21,822 nucleotides of DNA. It comes from a virus. The DNA lies in the IMG/VR virus record IMGVR_UViG_3300038701_003553, positions 1 through 21,822 of that record; one strand, given 5' to 3'. Shown here one piece after another: positions 5,160-19,875 of this stretch. The position numbers and the translations under genes are program-made. Each line of letters starts with the position of its first letter. The first letter of the stretch is position 1. A model generated the notes under the pieces. It worked only from the letters and a program-made list of their open reading frames with translations. It searched no databases and was not told the origin of the DNA.

Positions 5160-5621
5160 TTAAGGGTTGTACACATAAACTGTTACATCATAACCATGTT
5201 TTGTGCTTGCTTTTTCAATAATTTTTTCAATGATATCCCAATCACCGCCACCTAATCCGGCACCAATTTTTGGAATTGCGAGACCTGTATTTAATTGTTT
5301 CATCATATTAACTAATTTAAAATTATGAAAACAATCATCGATTGCATCGTAAGAAACAAATTTACTTCCTGACTTACCATAATTTTGTTGAGTAATCATA
5401 TTACAAATAACTATATTATCTGATTGTGCTGGAACAAATACAATGTCGCCCATAATATTACCTTCACCTAAACATAAGGCTTGATATGTAGGAAAAATTT
5501 CTGGATATTTGTCTCTTAAAATTTTAGCAACACCAGAACCCATCACACCATGCGCATTACATCCATGTGCAATTACTTTTTCTTTACAATTTAAAATATT
5601 GCCTTCAATGTATTTAATCAT
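5160..5621 (-). CDS. macro-domain ADP-ribose-processing protein
   Basis: A single macro domain of 153 residues. The ligand-binding loops are clear: GCNAHGVMGSGVAK at residues 20-33 and IPKIGAGLGGGDW at about 116-128, the latter typical of the ALC1/Poa1-like branch that hydrolyses ADP-ribose 1''-phosphate or removes ADP-ribose from macromolecules. Such enzymes act in the cytoplasm. The gene overlaps the upstream gene by four bases (ATGA). In a phage it may recycle ADP-ribose derivatives or undo host ADP-ribosylation used in defence; this is inference. Confidence 0.88.
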   Translation of the reverse strand: MIKYIEGNILNCKEKVIAHGCNAHGVMGSGVAKILRDKYPEIFPTYQALCLGEGNIMGDIVFVPAQSDNIVICNMITQQNYGKSGSKFVSYDAIDDCFHNFKLVNMMKQLNTGLAIPKIGAGLGGGDWDIIEKIIEKASTKHGYDVTVYVYNP

Positions 5622-9513: not shown

Positions 9514-10613
9514 TTTTTTGCCAATACTTTCTCAATTTCGCTTCTTTGAACACTTTTATCAAGTGGATGTGTATCATACAAAGCATTTCGTTGTGCTTTT
9601 GCAGTTTTTACCAATTCTTCATCGCTCATTGCTTCAATATCAGATGCTTTCAATGAAGCTAGATAATCGTCATTATAATATACTTTAAGCTCAGATGGTT
9701 CACCAATAAGAATTGATCTTACATCAGCTACTTGTAGAGGTCTAGCTCTCCACCAACCAGAAGCTGTTTTAGTTCCATCAGTATGAAAATAACCGGGCAT
9801 TAAAATACCCCATTGAGATAAAAATTCAGCACACATATCACCTTCTTTTAGTCTAGGAGATTTGTACTGCCCACGAGCTGCTCCATAATAATGAATTGGC
9901 CATTGCCAAGAATCTTTATTTTGTTTATCGAGCCACTTGCGTGTTTTACCCTGCACTAAGCTGGCAAAATTCCACTCTTTTCTTTTACCTGAAGGGAAAG
10001 ATAATTCGCCTTCACGATAAAAATTATTGTCAGGTGTTCTGTTAATATGATAAGGATTTGGATTAAATCTTACAACTTTAGAATCATCCCAATCCAAATT
10101 CAATCTTGACAAATCGCCACCATCGAAAGCAGAAATAAGCATTCTATTATTTCTATTTTTCAATATTTTAATAGCTTCTAAATATTGAGGAACGAATTTT
10201 TGAAGCTCTTCACGAGTTTCATCTCCACCATTCATATTTACCAAATAATCTCTGAAGGCAGAATCATAATTCTTTTCTTCTAAAACTTCGCCATATTTAA
10301 TGATGTTGTTATAAATGCTATCAAATTGCCAATCATCGAATGATACAATACAATTAGGCCGTGCTGAAATCGCATATAATCCATGCCAAAGTCTTTGACA
10401 AAAACCAGCAGGAGAATGAATATAAACAATGACTTCGTCATAATGAGAAATATCTTCGCCTAATTCAACTGGTCGTTGTTCAACTTCCCATCCCATATCT
10501 TCTAAAGATGCGATAAGAGATGTATGACTCGGTACGACTTGAAGTTGCTGTTTTTGATAATGATCTCTTTTAGTTTGAAGAGTATTCATTCCAGTAATTA
10601 GAATCTTTTTCAT
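9504..10613 (-). CDS. GT-B glycosyltransferase resembling T4 beta-glucosyltransferase
   Basis: Protein of 369 residues with a two-Rossmann (GT-B) layout. The first half runs from KKILITGMNTLQ through HYDEVIVYIHSPAGF and CIVSFDDWQFD. The second half, from WNFASLVQGKTRKWL and IHYYGAARGQYKSPR to WWRARPLQVADVRSIL and a helical C-terminus, lines up by eye with the BGT segments SFRSGQRESKM, IEFFGNAREKQFKNP and ITLRVWETMASDAVMLI. The conserved Arg of the donor site is kept; the Glu after it is Gln here. T4 BGT glucosylates hydroxymethylcytosine. Its sugar here may be galactose or galactofuranose because glf and galE are close by. DNA is only one possible acceptor. Confidence 0.7.
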   Translation of the reverse strand: MKKILITGMNTLQTKRDHYQKQQLQVVPSHTSLIASLEDMGWEVEQRPVELGEDISHYDEVIVYIHSPAGFCQRLWHGLYAISARPNCIVSFDDWQFDSIYNNIIKYGEVLEEKNYDSAFRDYLVNMNGGDETREELQKFVPQYLEAIKILKNRNNRMLISAFDGGDLSRLNLDWDDSKVVRFNPNPYHINRTPDNNFYREGELSFPSGKRKEWNFASLVQGKTRKWLDKQNKDSWQWPIHYYGAARGQYKSPRLKEGDMCAEFLSQWGILMPGYFHTDGTKTASGWWRARPLQVADVRSILIGEPSELKVYYNDDYLASLKASDIEAMSDEELVKTAKAQRNALYDTHPLDKSVQRSEIEKVLAKKCM

Positions 10614-12752: not shown

Positions 12753-14471
12753 TTAATTGATTTCGTATTCAGTGAAGTTATTTATCTTTTTAGCTGTAAT
12801 AACTTGACTAAATAATTCGCGATTTTTGATGTCTTCATTATGAGAAATAATCATAATATTTGTATCGTGGAATTCGTTTAGAATTGCTTCCACATTATCA
12901 ACATTTGTTGAGTCTAATCCATCCATTAATTCATCAATGATTAACGTATTGGATGCTGTGCTATTTTTTAATTTTGTGATATCTCTAAATGCTAAAAGAA
13001 TAGCAAGATCGATTCTTTTCTTTTCGCCTTCCGAGAAAGAAAAGTATGAAAATGAATCTCTAAATCTAGATTTAATTGTTTCATTAAATTCAGAATCCAA
13101 TTCGAATAAAACAAACATATCCATTTTCTCAAGATATTTATTAATAAGTTGGTTGAAAATAGGAATATATTTAGAAATAACAACAGTTTTAATACCAGAA
13201 TCTTTTAAAATATCAATACAATTTTTGGTTGTTTTATGAAGCTTTTGAAGTTTTTCCAATTCATTATTATGCTTAGTGATTTTAGTCTTGAATTCAGCAA
13301 GCTTTTGCTCATTAAGATTAGTATCACTACTTTCTCTTTTAGCTTTAAGCTCTTTAATTCTTGTGTTTAACTCAATAATTGACTTTTCTACAACTGATAA
13401 TAAATTTTCACTAATTGAAATTTCAGTTTCAATATCACTCTTTGTATTCAAATATGAAGTGATTCTTTTTTCAGACTCTTGTAAAGTTGAATACCTTTCA
13501 TTCATCTTTTCTAATTTAGAATTTAGTGATTCTAAATTTTGATTGATTTCTTTATTAGAAACCTCCTTATGTTCATGTGATATTTTCTGTTTACACATTG
13601 AGCAATTATTGTTGTCAGCTAAAAATGCTTTTTCTTTATTGTAGATTGATATTTCAGTTTCAATTGCTTTAATTTTTCCATAATATGATCTTATTGCTTC
13701 TGATATTTCGTTCTTTGTAAAGCTAAAAGAATTTTCCTCTGAAAGCTTTGTCAACTCAGCTTTTTTAGATTTGATTTTTTCGAATGTATTTTTATATTCG
13801 ATTTTCTTCTCTTCTCTCTTCGAAGCAATGGATTTTATTTCTTCATCTGATAAAACTTTTTCGCTATCGATAACATCTTGGAATGTTTTAATCGATTCGC
13901 TCAAAACTGAAATTTTATATTGAAGATCTGCAATATCCTTTTTATAATAATCAAATCTTGATTTAGCTAATGCGGACATTTTTGAAAATATATGAATATC
14001 CAGAACATCTTCAATAACTTCTCGTCTGTGCGCAGGAGACATTTGCATAAATGGTGTAAATGCAGCACTGCCCAAAACAACAGTTTGGATAAATGTTTTG
14101 AAGCTCATTTTAAGAATTTCTTTTTCTAGATATTCTTGATATGATCTTACATCAGCGGTCTGTTCAACTAATTCATCATTTTTATAGATTTCAAATATAA
14201 CAGGAGAAATTCCTCTCACAACTTTATATTCATTAAAATAAATTTCAACAACAAGTTTTTTCTTGTTAATTGAATTGATTATCTGTCCCTTTTTAATATT
14301 TCTATATGATTTACCATATAAACCAAAGGAAATAGCATCAATAATTGTAGATTTACCCTCACCTGAGTTACCCATGATGAGTGTATTATTTTTTGATTCT
14401 AAATCGAACTCTATGAAAGAATTACCAATACTTAGAAAGTTCTTTATTTTGATTTTCTTTAATATAATCAA
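12753..14471 (-). CDS. 46: recombination endonuclease subunit, Rad50/SbcC-like (gp46)
   Basis: Homologue of T4 gp46, the ATPase partner of gp47 in processing double-strand ends for recombination-dependent replication. Walker A GNSGEGKST at 34-42, a zinc-hook CSMC at 290-293 within the coiled-coil region, signature FSEGEKKR at 479-486 and Walker B TLIIDELMDGLD at 509-520 are all present. The segment ILKDSGIKTVVISKYIPIFN is near-identical in style to T4. Length is 572 (T4: 560). The start is TTG, overlapping the gp47 stop as TTGA; no ATG exists before Walker A. Confidence 0.95.
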   Translation of the reverse strand: MIILKKIKIKNFLSIGNSFIEFDLESKNNTLIMGNSGEGKSTIIDAISFGLYGKSYRNIKKGQIINSINKKKLVVEIYFNEYKVVRGISPVIFEIYKNDELVEQTADVRSYQEYLEKEILKMSFKTFIQTVVLGSAAFTPFMQMSPAHRREVIEDVLDIHIFSKMSALAKSRFDYYKKDIADLQYKISVLSESIKTFQDVIDSEKVLSDEEIKSIASKREEKKIEYKNTFEKIKSKKAELTKLSEENSFSFTKNEISEAIRSYYGKIKAIETEISIYNKEKAFLADNNNCSMCKQKISHEHKEVSNKEINQNLESLNSKLEKMNERYSTLQESEKRITSYLNTKSDIETEISISENLLSVVEKSIIELNTRIKELKAKRESSDTNLNEQKLAEFKTKITKHNNELEKLQKLHKTTKNCIDILKDSGIKTVVISKYIPIFNQLINKYLEKMDMFVLFELDSEFNETIKSRFRDSFSYFSFSEGEKKRIDLAILLAFRDITKLKNSTASNTLIIDELMDGLDSTNVDNVEAILNEFHDTNIMIISHNEDIKNRELFSQVITAKKINNFTEYEIN

Positions 14472-15502: not shown

Positions 15503-15661
15503 CTATTTTCTATTTTTGTCTTCAGCTAAGATTCTTTCACAATATTCTTTTATTGCAAGAATGCGTTCTCTTAGCATATTATTTTCACTACTATTGGGAC
15601 GTGACGACAGAGTTTTGCTGCGAAGATCTTTTATAATTTCAGGAATTAAGAAACTATTCAT
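15503..15661 (-). CDS. 52-aa small protein between genes 55 and 47
   Basis: ATG-started frame of 52 codons that overlaps the end of gene 55 by eight bases and has GAGG about eight bases upstream. The protein begins MNSFLIPEIIKDLR and ends in a charged, helical stretch (LRERILAIKEYCERILAEDKNRK) that could form a short coiled coil. It is not recognised. Placement and start context suggest it is translated by coupling with 55. Confidence 0.65.
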   Translation of the reverse strand: MNSFLIPEIIKDLRSKTLSSRPNSSENNMLRERILAIKEYCERILAEDKNRK

Positions 15662-16196
15662 TAGCATCTACCTCAAATTCTGTTAGCTTTTTCTTTTTCT
15701 CTTTTTTTCTTTTTATTTTACTTTCGAACTTTGATATGATATCATTATCAACAAAGTCCTCATTTGCCTGAGATACAGCTTGACCAGTCATCATCATTTC
15801 GTTATGATTATGATTGACAAGAGATTTTTGTTTTAAATATGATTGTCGTGATTCAATATTAATCATATTGACAAATGCATTATTGGCAATTTGAGAAAAA
15901 TAAGCGAATGGATTATCGTATTCGAATGCTTTATATTGTTTCTTATTTAAAGCTGCGATACATTTTTCTAATGCATCGCCTTTCATATCATCAAGATATG
16001 AATAACCATTAAAACACCCCTTTGTACCAAGTCTTTCAACGATTTGAAAGATTGCAAGAACAATGATGTCGGGTATTTTTTCTTCACCTGAGTTATACCA
16101 TTCAACTAGGTTTTTTTGTAGTGTTGGTCCATTAACATAGTCTCTGGACTGATCTCTATTTTTAATTCTCGTTCGTTTTTTCTTAACTAGAGCCAT
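15654..16196 (-). CDS. 55: late-transcription sigma factor (gp55)
   Basis: Homologue of T4 gp55, the small sigma factor that lets host RNA polymerase read TATAAATA late promoters. The core segment YDNPFAYFSQIANNAFVNMIN matches T4 NPFAYFTTIAFNAFRRRI, the region 2-like core binding helix. It is preceded by YLDDMKGDALEKCI. Length 180 (T4: 185). The C-terminus is Lys-rich and ends LTEFEVDANE; the clamp-binding hydrophobic tail of T4 is not obvious. It begins with ATG after AGGAG and has its own promoter at 16229-16257. Confidence 0.93.
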   Translation of the reverse strand: MALVKKKRTRIKNRDQSRDYVNGPTLQKNLVEWYNSGEEKIPDIIVLAIFQIVERLGTKGCFNGYSYLDDMKGDALEKCIAALNKKQYKAFEYDNPFAYFSQIANNAFVNMINIESRQSYLKQKSLVNHNHNEMMMTGQAVSQANEDFVDNDIISKFESKIKRKKEKKKKLTEFEVDANE

Positions 16197-16228
16197 TAAA
16201 CTCCTTTTTTTCTTTTTGTTATCAACAT

Positions 16229-16257
16229 ATTATAACATAAAAATTATTCTATGTACA
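16229..16257 (-). promoter_or_regulatory. promoter of gene 55 (minus arm of a divergent pair)
   Basis: On the minus strand TGTACA (16252-16257), 17 bases, then a perfect TATAAT (16229-16234) with an upstream TG (extended -10). The start would be near 16222, leaving a short leader with AGGAG before gene 55. Its -35 hexamer is a palindrome shared with the opposite promoter. Confidence 0.7.
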
Positions 16258-16282
16258 TAATAAATGAATCGTGTTATAAATA
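16252..16282 (+). promoter_or_regulatory. plus-strand promoter (early plus late) facing a gene-free region
   Basis: The same TGTACA (16252-16257), 17 bases, TATAAA (16275-16280), also with TG before the -10. The -10 box is part of TATAAATA (16275-16282), the T4 late octamer. Both early and late starts would fall near 16287. The first plus-strand gene is more than 3 kb away, so the product is probably a short RNA. Confidence 0.6.
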
Positions 16283-16286
16283 AATT

Positions 16287-16625
16287 TGTATTTTCTTTTT
16301 ATATTATAGGTAAGGTATAAAATAGAAGTACCAAATATCATGCTTACCATGCAATAATGATGGTTACTTAATGGAATACGAGACCATTATTTTCAATTTA
16401 CACTTACCACTTAGACTAAAGTAGTCACAGTCTTTAAATAAAAGACTACAAGAAGTTAAAAACTGTAAGTAAATAATTTTGATGATTAAGGATTATTTAC
16501 TCGGCGCTATATACTGTCACACATAAAAGTAAAAACATAAGCCTTACTTTCCAATTTTGGTTGTGAATAATCATTTTTTTATCAGGCTCTGGGAGTTTTT
16601 TTAACTCTCCTGCAGCCTGAGATAT
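16287..16625 (+). ncRNA. candidate structured non-coding RNA
   Basis: No credible reading frame exists on either strand between 16197 and 16714. The plus strand contains many complementary segments: GGTAAG/CTTACC (16309, 16343), AATGATGGT/ACCATTATT (16356, 16383), GTCTTT/AAAGAC (16430, 16441), a 10-bp hairpin at 16468-16501, AAAGTAA/TTACTTT (16526, 16544) and TCAGGCT/AGCCTGA (16582, 16614) around an inner stem. Two helices need G-U pairs only on the plus strand, agreeing with the promoter at 16252. One segment (16468-16474) can pair either upstream or downstream, so two folds compete. Family not recognised; an origin transcript is an alternative. Confidence 0.4.
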
Positions 16626-16639
16626 ATAAAAAATTCTAA

Positions 16640-16693
16640 TAAAAAATATTAAAACCAAATGCGAAGCATTTGGTCCTAGAGCTTCGCTCTAGG
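16640..16693 (-). terminator. tandem-hairpin terminator after the Sm-like gene
   Basis: Two perfect hairpins touch each other: a 9-bp stem with a GAA/TTC loop (16654-16674) and an 8-bp stem (16675-16693). On the minus strand they lie just after the Sm-like gene and are followed by a T-rich run (16640-16653). Their loops, GCGAAGC and GCTTCGC, are complementary to each other. Confidence 0.75.
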
Positions 16694-16714
16694 TATTCTC
16701 ATATTTATTAGTTC

Positions 16715-17086
16715 TTAATGATAAGTATTATTATCTTCTATATAATTATTTATATCAGATGAATCTGAGTCTGAATCTAGATTTCTACTAAATACTTCTA
16801 GTACACTGTTTGTAAGACCTTTAATTTCTTCCAGTGTATTTATATAGTATTCCCTTATTGGAACACAAGGGTCAATTTCCATCAGTATAGATTTTTTGGA
16901 TATTTTAACTTCTTGATTAAAGATAGTTGTCTTCAAAAATGGAGATATTGAAAGCATATATGTATCATCAACAGGTATATAAGAATATATACATGCATTT
17001 CTGATAGTAACAGATTTTTTATTCAATGAAGTTACTTCACATACAATTTCATCTCCAGTAATCAATTTAAAAATACTTACATTCAT
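16715..17086 (-). CDS. Sm-like (LSm fold) phage protein
   Basis: Protein of 123 residues whose first half has the Sm pattern: FKLITGDEIVCEVTSLNKKSVTIRNACIYSY, that is, a strand with G-E/D-I-V, a turn with K-V and a following strand with N. Sm-like proteins of putative cyanophage origin are known from structural work, and such proteins in bacteria (Hfq) bind RNA. The C-terminal 30 residues are acidic and probably disordered. The start overlaps the uvsW stop by four bases (ATGA). RNA binding here is inference. It is followed by a strong terminator. Confidence 0.75.
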   Translation of the reverse strand: MNVSIFKLITGDEIVCEVTSLNKKSVTIRNACIYSYIPVDDTYMLSISPFLKTTIFNQEVKISKKSILMEIDPCVPIREYYINTLEEIKGLTNSVLEVFSRNLDSDSDSSDINNYIEDNNTYH

Positions 17087-19014: not shown

Positions 19015-19500
19015 TTATCCTACAGTGAATAAATCATATTCGAATGTTACACTACATTCTGCGTAAGTTATAGTTTCATTTTCTATATTAATATTTATAC
19101 CACCTAAATCCGTAGGCCATGCATTGATAAATTTGAAAGCTCTTGTTGGATTATTTTTACCACTGAATACAAATACATCGATATCAGATAATAATGATTC
19201 TTTCACTCCAACTGGTTTCGTTTTTCCGTATTGTTCATAGCTTTCAGGAAAACCAATCTCAGTCATCCAATCAACTATTTCTTTATAGTTCTTTAGGTTA
19301 GCATCTATAGTAAATGTTAATTCTAAAGGAGCGAAAGAAATGTGATCACCCTGTTCCTTAATTGTAGTGAATGGAGATGCTACTGGAACTGATGGTAGCG
19401 AAATATTCGGTATGTTTACAGCTTTCGAAAAATAGTCAAGTTTAGGTGCTCTGTGAATGACACTCTTAAAGAGATTATTTTGTAACATATTAATTGACAT
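19015..19500 (-). CDS. tail tube-fold protein (T4 gp19 family)
   Basis: Protein of 161 residues whose C-terminal half, RAFKFINAWPTDLGGIN followed by TYAECSVTFEYDLFTV, lines up with T4 gp19 EIKGLWPTNVGELQ and EVTLALDYWE. The middle LELTFTIDANLKNYKEIVDWM matches DDWTVTVMNDEAHDARQKFVDW. It may be the tail tube itself, or a related tube-initiator or baseplate-tube protein of marine T4-like phages. It starts with ATG but without a clear ribosome site, and a late-like octamer lies 40 bases upstream, which fits a structural gene. Confidence 0.75.
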   Translation of the reverse strand: MSINMLQNNLFKSVIHRAPKLDYFSKAVNIPNISLPSVPVASPFTTIKEQGDHISFAPLELTFTIDANLKNYKEIVDWMTEIGFPESYEQYGKTKPVGVKESLLSDIDVFVFSGKNNPTRAFKFINAWPTDLGGININIENETITYAECSVTFEYDLFTVG

Positions 19501-19507
19501 TTTTTTG

Positions 19508-19538
19508 TTTACTTTCGATAAAAACTATTATATAAATG
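19508..19538 (+). promoter_or_regulatory. promoter of the 33-59-32 cluster
   Basis: TTTACT (19508-19513), 17 bases, TATAAA (19531-19536). The -10 region also reads TATAAATG, one base off the late octamer. It drives the plus-strand genes starting at 19570. Confidence 0.6.
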
Positions 19539-19546
19539 TATTTATT
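19539..19546 (-). promoter_or_regulatory. possible late promoter of the tail gene
   Basis: On the minus strand AATAAATA, seven of eight bases of the T4 late octamer, about 40 bases before the tail tube-fold gene. It lies back to back with the plus-strand promoter. Confidence 0.3.
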
Positions 19547-19569
19547 GAACTTAACGGATTGGTGATATA

Positions 19570-19875
19570 ATGATTTTAATTTCAATATGTGTTTTAATAC
19601 TGTTATTTTCTAGCGCTGGCTTGCTATTTGTTGATAATATATCTGATTCTAAAAAAGAAAGTTATGATTGGCTTCCTTTTCCAGAAAAACCTCATAGCAT
19701 TTATGAAGGTGATTCTATAGAAGTTTTAGATGAAGATGGAAATATTAAAACCGTATTTTGGAGAGCCGAATATGTGAGCTTTGGTAGAGATACTAAAACA
19801 ACATTCGGTGGTTGGGTTGAAAATAAAAAAGATAAAGAATTTGTAAATGCTAAATTTTGGAGACAAATCACTTAA
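19570..19875 (+). CDS. hypothetical membrane-anchored protein (101 aa)
   Basis: First gene of the plus-strand cluster, with ATG and GGTG upstream. An N-terminal hydrophobic helix (ILISICVLILLFSSAGLLFV) acts as signal anchor or signal peptide, followed by a soluble, acidic and aromatic part (SIEVLDEDGNIKTVFWRAEYV and TFGGWVENKK) that may form a small beta fold. No family recognised. Its stop overlaps the gp33 start (TAATG). Confidence 0.7.
   Translation: MILISICVLILLFSSAGLLFVDNISDSKKESYDWLPFPEKPHSIYEGDSIEVLDEDGNIKTVFWRAEYVSFGRDTKTTFGGWVENKKDKEFVNAKFWRQIT

Follow-up and report, generated by a model that had tools for sequence, protein, structure and literature searches.

The window, meaning the whole 21,822-nucleotide (nt) stretch analysed here (IMG/VR virus record IMGVR_UViG_3300038701_003553, positions 1 to 21,822), represents part of the genome of an uncultured T4-like phage, and positions 16287-16700 of its plus strand probably form a gene for a structured non-coding RNA of approximately 410 nt, for which an action in trans is the likeliest role. 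Comparison with two relatives shows that the predicted plus-strand fold has been kept by all three phages at the same locus. The RNA lies in a 518-nt gap (16197-16714), with the gene of the late sigma factor gp55 on one side and an Sm-like (phrog_527) gene on the other. An earlier note on this DNA had described a gene-free region of 518 bases with at least six complementary pairs; the gap contains no plus-strand open reading frame (ORF) of at least 20 codons, and 13 inverted-repeat pairs were counted in the region. Two minus-strand ORFs of 33 and 53 amino acids (aa) are present in the gap, and the 53-aa ORF had no PHROG match. We infer transcription of the RNA, co-expression with gp55, a start at 16287, as judged by the promoter, and an end at 16700, as judged by the last hairpin.

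The two relatives were located via clade-specific motifs of gp46. G001, also labelled L212 (IMGVR_UViG_3300038701_002693), is identical to the window at 72% of uvsW and 65% of gp55, and L219 (IMGVR_UViG_3300035698_019407) at 51% and 54%, respectively. A protein-pattern scan using uvsW alone found nothing, and the first gp46 alignment scan yielded only relatives of approximately 40% identity; relatives at this level of identity in gp46, gp55 and uvsW have a short spacer at the locus. The window gp46 (12753-14471, minus strand) reads DELMDGLD vs DE(I/V)FDSSLD in the aligned T4-like relatives, which makes it a useful clade marker. In both G001 and L219, the Sm-like gene is followed by a long non-coding stretch (598 and 608 nt, respectively), and in L219 a 114-aa ORF separates this stretch from gp55. 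Across 133 T4-like loci that carry uvsW and gp55 in the same order on one strand, an uncovered stretch of more than 250 nt between these genes was found only in the window, G001 and L219; the stretch is therefore a lineage feature and not a general T4-like spacer.

Evidence for homology of the RNA was obtained both with and without structural models. A 27-mer, AAGAGATGGAAATACTTAAACCATCAG, is identical in G001 and L219 within otherwise diverged surroundings. The covariance model R1, comprising three hairpins and built from G001 and L219 only, had its best match in the whole window at 16444-16572 (plus strand), end to end, with 20.0 bits and an E value of 0.05, the next match scoring 14.1; rescaled to one strand of the 518-nt gap, the E value is approximately 6e-4 by our own scaling. 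The match is convincing because it is located at the expected position. When the window RNA and L219 were aligned locally without regard to structure, they were collinear over approximately 190 nt, and 1 of 1000 dinucleotide shuffles was as good; for G001 and L219, no shuffle of 1000 was.

A coding explanation was tried and rejected. Short frames opening with ATG GAA occur in all three phages, and their conservation ends at approximately seven codons. The 27-nt block holds ATG GAA ATA CTT AAA CCA TCA, which yields MEILKPS frames 28 and 15 codons long (L212 3567-3605 and L219 5088-5125, minus), and the window has a different frame of 17 codons with its ATG GAA start at 16371. The identity of the block extends to third codon positions and to five bases 5' of the ATG, thereby counting against coding.

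The same order of elements, namely, a first H-type pseudoknot (PK1), AAGA, hairpins and a second pseudoknot (PK2), with paired cells in the same columns, was found in the window, G001 and L219. Stem 1 of PK1 in the window pairs 16413-16417 with 16429-16433 (AGACU/AGUCU), and stem 2 pairs 16421-16426 with 16444-16449 (GUAGUC/GACUAC). The counterparts are AAUAGC/GCUAUU and UGAAC/GUUCA in G001 (3 of 400 shuffles as good) and AAUGGGC/GCGCAUU and GUAGAU/AUCUUC in L219 (2 of 150). Hairpins occupy comparable places between AAGA and PK2, although their sequences differ among the three RNAs; the 10-bp hairpin of the window (HP2; 16468-16477/16492-16501), already seen in the earlier note, is one of those with positional counterparts in the relatives. 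The MAFFT three-way alignments were off register in the pseudoknots, so a covariance-model alignment (A13) was used. Hairpin 4 (HP4; 16526-16532/16544-16550) is paired in 100% of cells across the three phages, with two pairs changed on both sides, and its loop pairs downstream; HP4 and this loop pairing make up an H-type pseudoknot, PK2. Stem 2 of PK2 is paired in 14 of 15 cells, with one pair changed on both sides. In A13, which was fitted to HP4 and to hairpin 5 (HP5) and so is biased towards both, the PK2 stem lying outside the model, HP4, the PK2 stem and HP5 together had 97.7% of cells paired vs 31-41% when slid by 1-3 columns. Double-sided changes affect four pairs of these helices (8 of 500 shuffles), and their cells include five G-U and no A-C combinations, which fits the plus strand only.

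The predicted promoter of the RNA (Table 1) stands back to back with that of gp55, and the palindromic TGTACA at 16252-16257 would be the -35 box of both. The pair is kept in G001, with the same boxes and 17 nt in both spacers, and 24 nt around the -10 box of the gp55 promoter are identical in the window and G001. G001 was also the sole match when viral_contigs was scanned for the back-to-back pattern; genome_contigs gave three matches, all on cellular contigs, and the RNA model found nothing significant on them. In L219, the comparable sequence at the RNA reads TGTATA-N17-TATAAT. A 35-nt inverted repeat, GTGTACTTATAT-N11-ATATAAGTACAC, lies at the promoter of the L219 RNA (5283-5317) and looks operator-like or bidirectional-element-like. 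The RNA promoter of the window contains the T4-late-type TATAAATA, a motif counted 8 times vs 6 expected in this AT-rich window and thus not enriched. Two hairpins with complementary loops stand at the far end of the RNA.

The comparison and the promoters bear on several proposals of the earlier note. It had proposed a structured RNA on the strand carrying a promoter, and both parts are supported: compensatory changes occur in two relatives, the promoter is present as TGTACA-N17-TATAAATA, and the promoter pair is conserved. Covarying plus-strand pairs were to support that proposal and a conserved reading frame to refute it; four double-changed pairs were found, and no ORF is conserved across the three RNA loci. 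The two mutually exclusive folds that it described do exist as pairings, but shuffled partners match in 120/300 and 59/300 cases, and the same strands pair above chance in neither relative; a bistable switch was dropped for these reasons. Its preference for the plus strand holds by comparison, through the G-U and A-C cells, and fails by energy, the minus strand being equally low.

Folding energies are given against dinucleotide shuffles. The z score is -3.8 for 16287-16625 and -5.5 for 16287-16700, terminator hairpins included, and no 250-nt tile of the window has a lower z than the one that begins at 16501. Folding energy alone proves neither an RNA nor its strand, because the 3' hairpins contribute much of the low score and the minus strand gives one just as low (z -5.97 vs -5.54 for the plus strand; -2.09 against -2.01 for the core, where the strands are near equal). 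A coding stretch, 10001-10250, also folds unusually well on its plus strand; its z of -5.3 (30 shuffles) is close to that of the RNA region.

Several results weigh against a structured RNA gene. Only three members are known, and the 27-mer was not found in the window. The window matches the independent model only modestly, with an E of 0.05 over its whole length, and chance scores of R1 reach 21-22 bits in 0.8 Mb of the relatives' loci. A plain local alignment of the window with G001 alone was not significant, and the RNA could not be aligned across its 5' and 3' thirds. PK1 of L219 has one mismatch per stem, and both hairpin 3 (HP3) of the window and the T-tract of the plus-strand candidate terminator are weak. 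The L219 RNA as a whole folds no better than shuffles (z -0.32). Searches for further members were negative: R1 found none in approximately 2 Mb of the relatives' loci and 40 whole virus records, blastn gave no meaningful match for the region against phages or for the 27-nt block against phages and against plasmids, and the exact RNA-core pattern had no match in viral_contigs.

Table 1. Features of the RNA locus in the window
Feature	Position	Strand	Evidence or remark
Putative structured non-coding RNA, ~410 nt	16287..16700	+	No ORF of at least 20 codons; fold z -5.5; structural homologues in two relatives
Predicted RNA promoter TGTACA-N17-TATAAATA, extended -10 TGT	16252..16282	+	Among the top three sigma70-type plus-strand sites of the window
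Predicted divergent gp55 promoter TGTACA-N17-TATAAT	16229..16257	-	-35 box common with RNA promoter
H-type pseudoknot PK1, A-rich loop 3	16413..16449	+	0/400 shuffles as good
AAGA directly 3' of PK1	16450..16453	+	Common to three RNAs (alignments A5 and A13)
Hairpin HP2, 10 bp, AGUAAAUAAU/AUUAUUUACU	16468..16501	+	Same-position hairpins of other sequence in both relatives
Hairpin HP4 AAAGUAA/UUACUUU (PK2 stem 1)	16526..16550	+	Three-phage alignment
PK2 stem 2, CAUAA 16536-16540 with UUGUG 16561-16565	16536..16565	+	HP4 loop pairs downstream
Small hairpin HP5 CCAA/UUGG, in PK2 loop 3	16551..16560	+	Pairs 16551-16554/16557-16560 in alignment A13
G+C-rich hairpin CAGGCUCUGGGAG...CUCCUGCAGCCUG near RNA 3' end	16582..16620	+	No clear relative counterpart established
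Hairpin CCTAGAGC-TTC-GCTCTAGG, candidate RNA 3' end	16675..16693	+	Weak T-tract; terminator scan gave no call
Intrinsic terminator of opposing uvsY-uvsW-Sm-like operon, convergent with RNA	16654..16674	-	0.0 expected in shuffles
gp55-type late sigma factor, divergent neighbour	15654..16196	-	phrog_234, E 9.8e-29
Sm-like protein gene, convergent neighbour	16715..17086	-	phrog_527, E 3e-10

The elements suggest the following course. Transcription would run rightward from the promoter that shares its palindromic -35 box with the leftward gp55 promoter, and the RNA would extend towards the hairpins ending the opposing uvsW/Sm-like operon, its core formed by two H-type pseudoknots with hairpins in between. 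On balance, we lean towards a trans-acting molecule, a stable folded RNA or ribonucleoprotein (RNP) made with gp55, which may bind a phage or host protein of transcription or translation. The conservation of a fold with two pseudoknots, in what would be a free-standing transcript, speaks for such an RNA or RNP and against a leader, a spacer or a primer. The neighbouring Sm-like protein would be a candidate partner; its gene also occurs in relatives without the RNA, and the partnership is therefore only a guess. It would be a long shot that a new class of pseudoknotted RNA shares one bidirectional promoter with the late sigma factor and joins the phage Sm-like protein in a viral Sm-RNA particle that controls the late switch.

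A cis-acting element is an unlikely but not negligible alternative, in which an untranslated or antisense RNA would tune gp55 or the uvsW/Sm-like operon by interference, promoter competition or termination. The use of one -35 box by the divergent promoters and the convergence of the RNA on the operon at the hairpin pair fit such a role. Interference, however, requires no conserved two-pseudoknot fold 120-280 nt downstream of the promoter, and the RNA overlaps neither neighbouring gene; since gp55 is on the other strand, the RNA is not a gp55 leader either.

We consider it rather improbable that the region is an ordinary AT-rich spacer with terminators, its pairs due to chance and its similarity to the relatives coincidental. 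Inverted repeats are numerous in AT-rich sequence, the minus strand folds just as well, and model scores near 20 bits arise by chance at other loci; yet the 27-nt identity in two relatives, the co-located R1 match, the covariation relative to slid controls and the presence of PK1 in all three phages speak against coincidence.

A type III antitoxin-like RNA, or another counter-defence decoy binding a host defence protein, has little probability. Phage PhiTE is reported to evade the ToxIN type III toxin-antitoxin system by RNA mimicry (PMC3475682), and the RNA here is lineage-restricted and evolves fast in sequence. The tandem repeats typical of ToxI, however, were not found in 16197-16714, and the locus lies beside core genes in diverged phages, not in a variable defence region.

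The earlier note had also suggested an R-loop primer for an origin, as at T4 promoters that prime replication. In this reading, the transcript would stay on the DNA downstream of its promoter and prime the leading strand as at T4 oriF/oriG, where the promoter is of the middle mode. The minimal oriF and oriG origins consist of a promoter and an AT-rich unwinding element, and no specific sequence is required there for an R-loop to form; switches of transcription and skew lie close to several active T4 origins (PMC3016281). The locus shares with oriF and oriG a T4-type genome and a promoter with AT-rich sequence after it, near uvsY/uvsW, yet an R-loop origin is the least probable explanation and gained no positive support, given that nearly the whole window is AT-rich, that the conserved feature here is RNA secondary structure and that the switch of transcription direction and GC skew lies away from the RNA, at approximately 19.5 kb. 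By analogy with T4, the switch itself (19500-19570) is a more natural origin site than 16.3 kb.

Upstream of the Sm-like gene, the minus strand carries uvsW, uvsY and the tail tube gene. The Sm-like assignment of 16715-17086 rests on the match of the family profile to PDB 3BY7 (E 1.6e-15) and on Pfam Sm_like in 4 of 10 members; the gene, which is conserved in T4-like phages at this place between uvsW and gp55, carries the annotation 'methylamine utilization' in cyanophages. Elsewhere in the window, 5160-5621 (minus strand) appears from its sequence to encode a macro-domain-like (ADP-ribose binding) protein.

Comparison with known RNAs places the candidate outside the described families. Rfam 15 gave no match at gathering score in the region of any of the three phages, and matches at E up to 10 were far below the gathering scores. 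The RNA resembles transfer-messenger RNA (tmRNA) as a chain of H-type pseudoknots separated by hairpins over approximately 400 nt, but lacks a tRNA-like domain and a tag frame, and neither ARAGORN nor Rfam found a tmRNA in any of the three phages. T4 RNA C and RNA D (rnaC/rnaD, the species 1 and 2 RNAs) are likewise small non-coding RNAs of a T4-type phage without known function (PMC12685909); at approximately 138 and 118 nt, they are set apart by length and location from the RNA of approximately 410 nt beside gp55. ROOL, with several pseudoknots, and GOLLD are also structured RNAs without known function, both large and carried by phages (PMC12286853). They are often found near tRNA islands, and GOLLD often exceeds 800 nt, whereas the window RNA lies 15 kb from the tRNA cluster of its phage; no ROOL or GOLLD match was obtained from Rfam in the region even at E up to 10. 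We therefore regard the RNA as a new candidate family of phage structured RNAs, of a kind with T4 RNA C/D and ROOL/GOLLD and apparently a member of none.

The candidate would extend a short list. To our knowledge, few phage RNAs with conserved complex folds have been reported, and T4 RNA C/D, ROOL and GOLLD are without known functions. The case also illustrates that RNA genes absent from current RNA libraries can lie in the non-coding gaps of compact metagenomic phage genomes, and the fixed place of this putative RNA between a late sigma factor and a potentially RNA-binding Sm-like gene makes its role directly testable in a T4-type infection.
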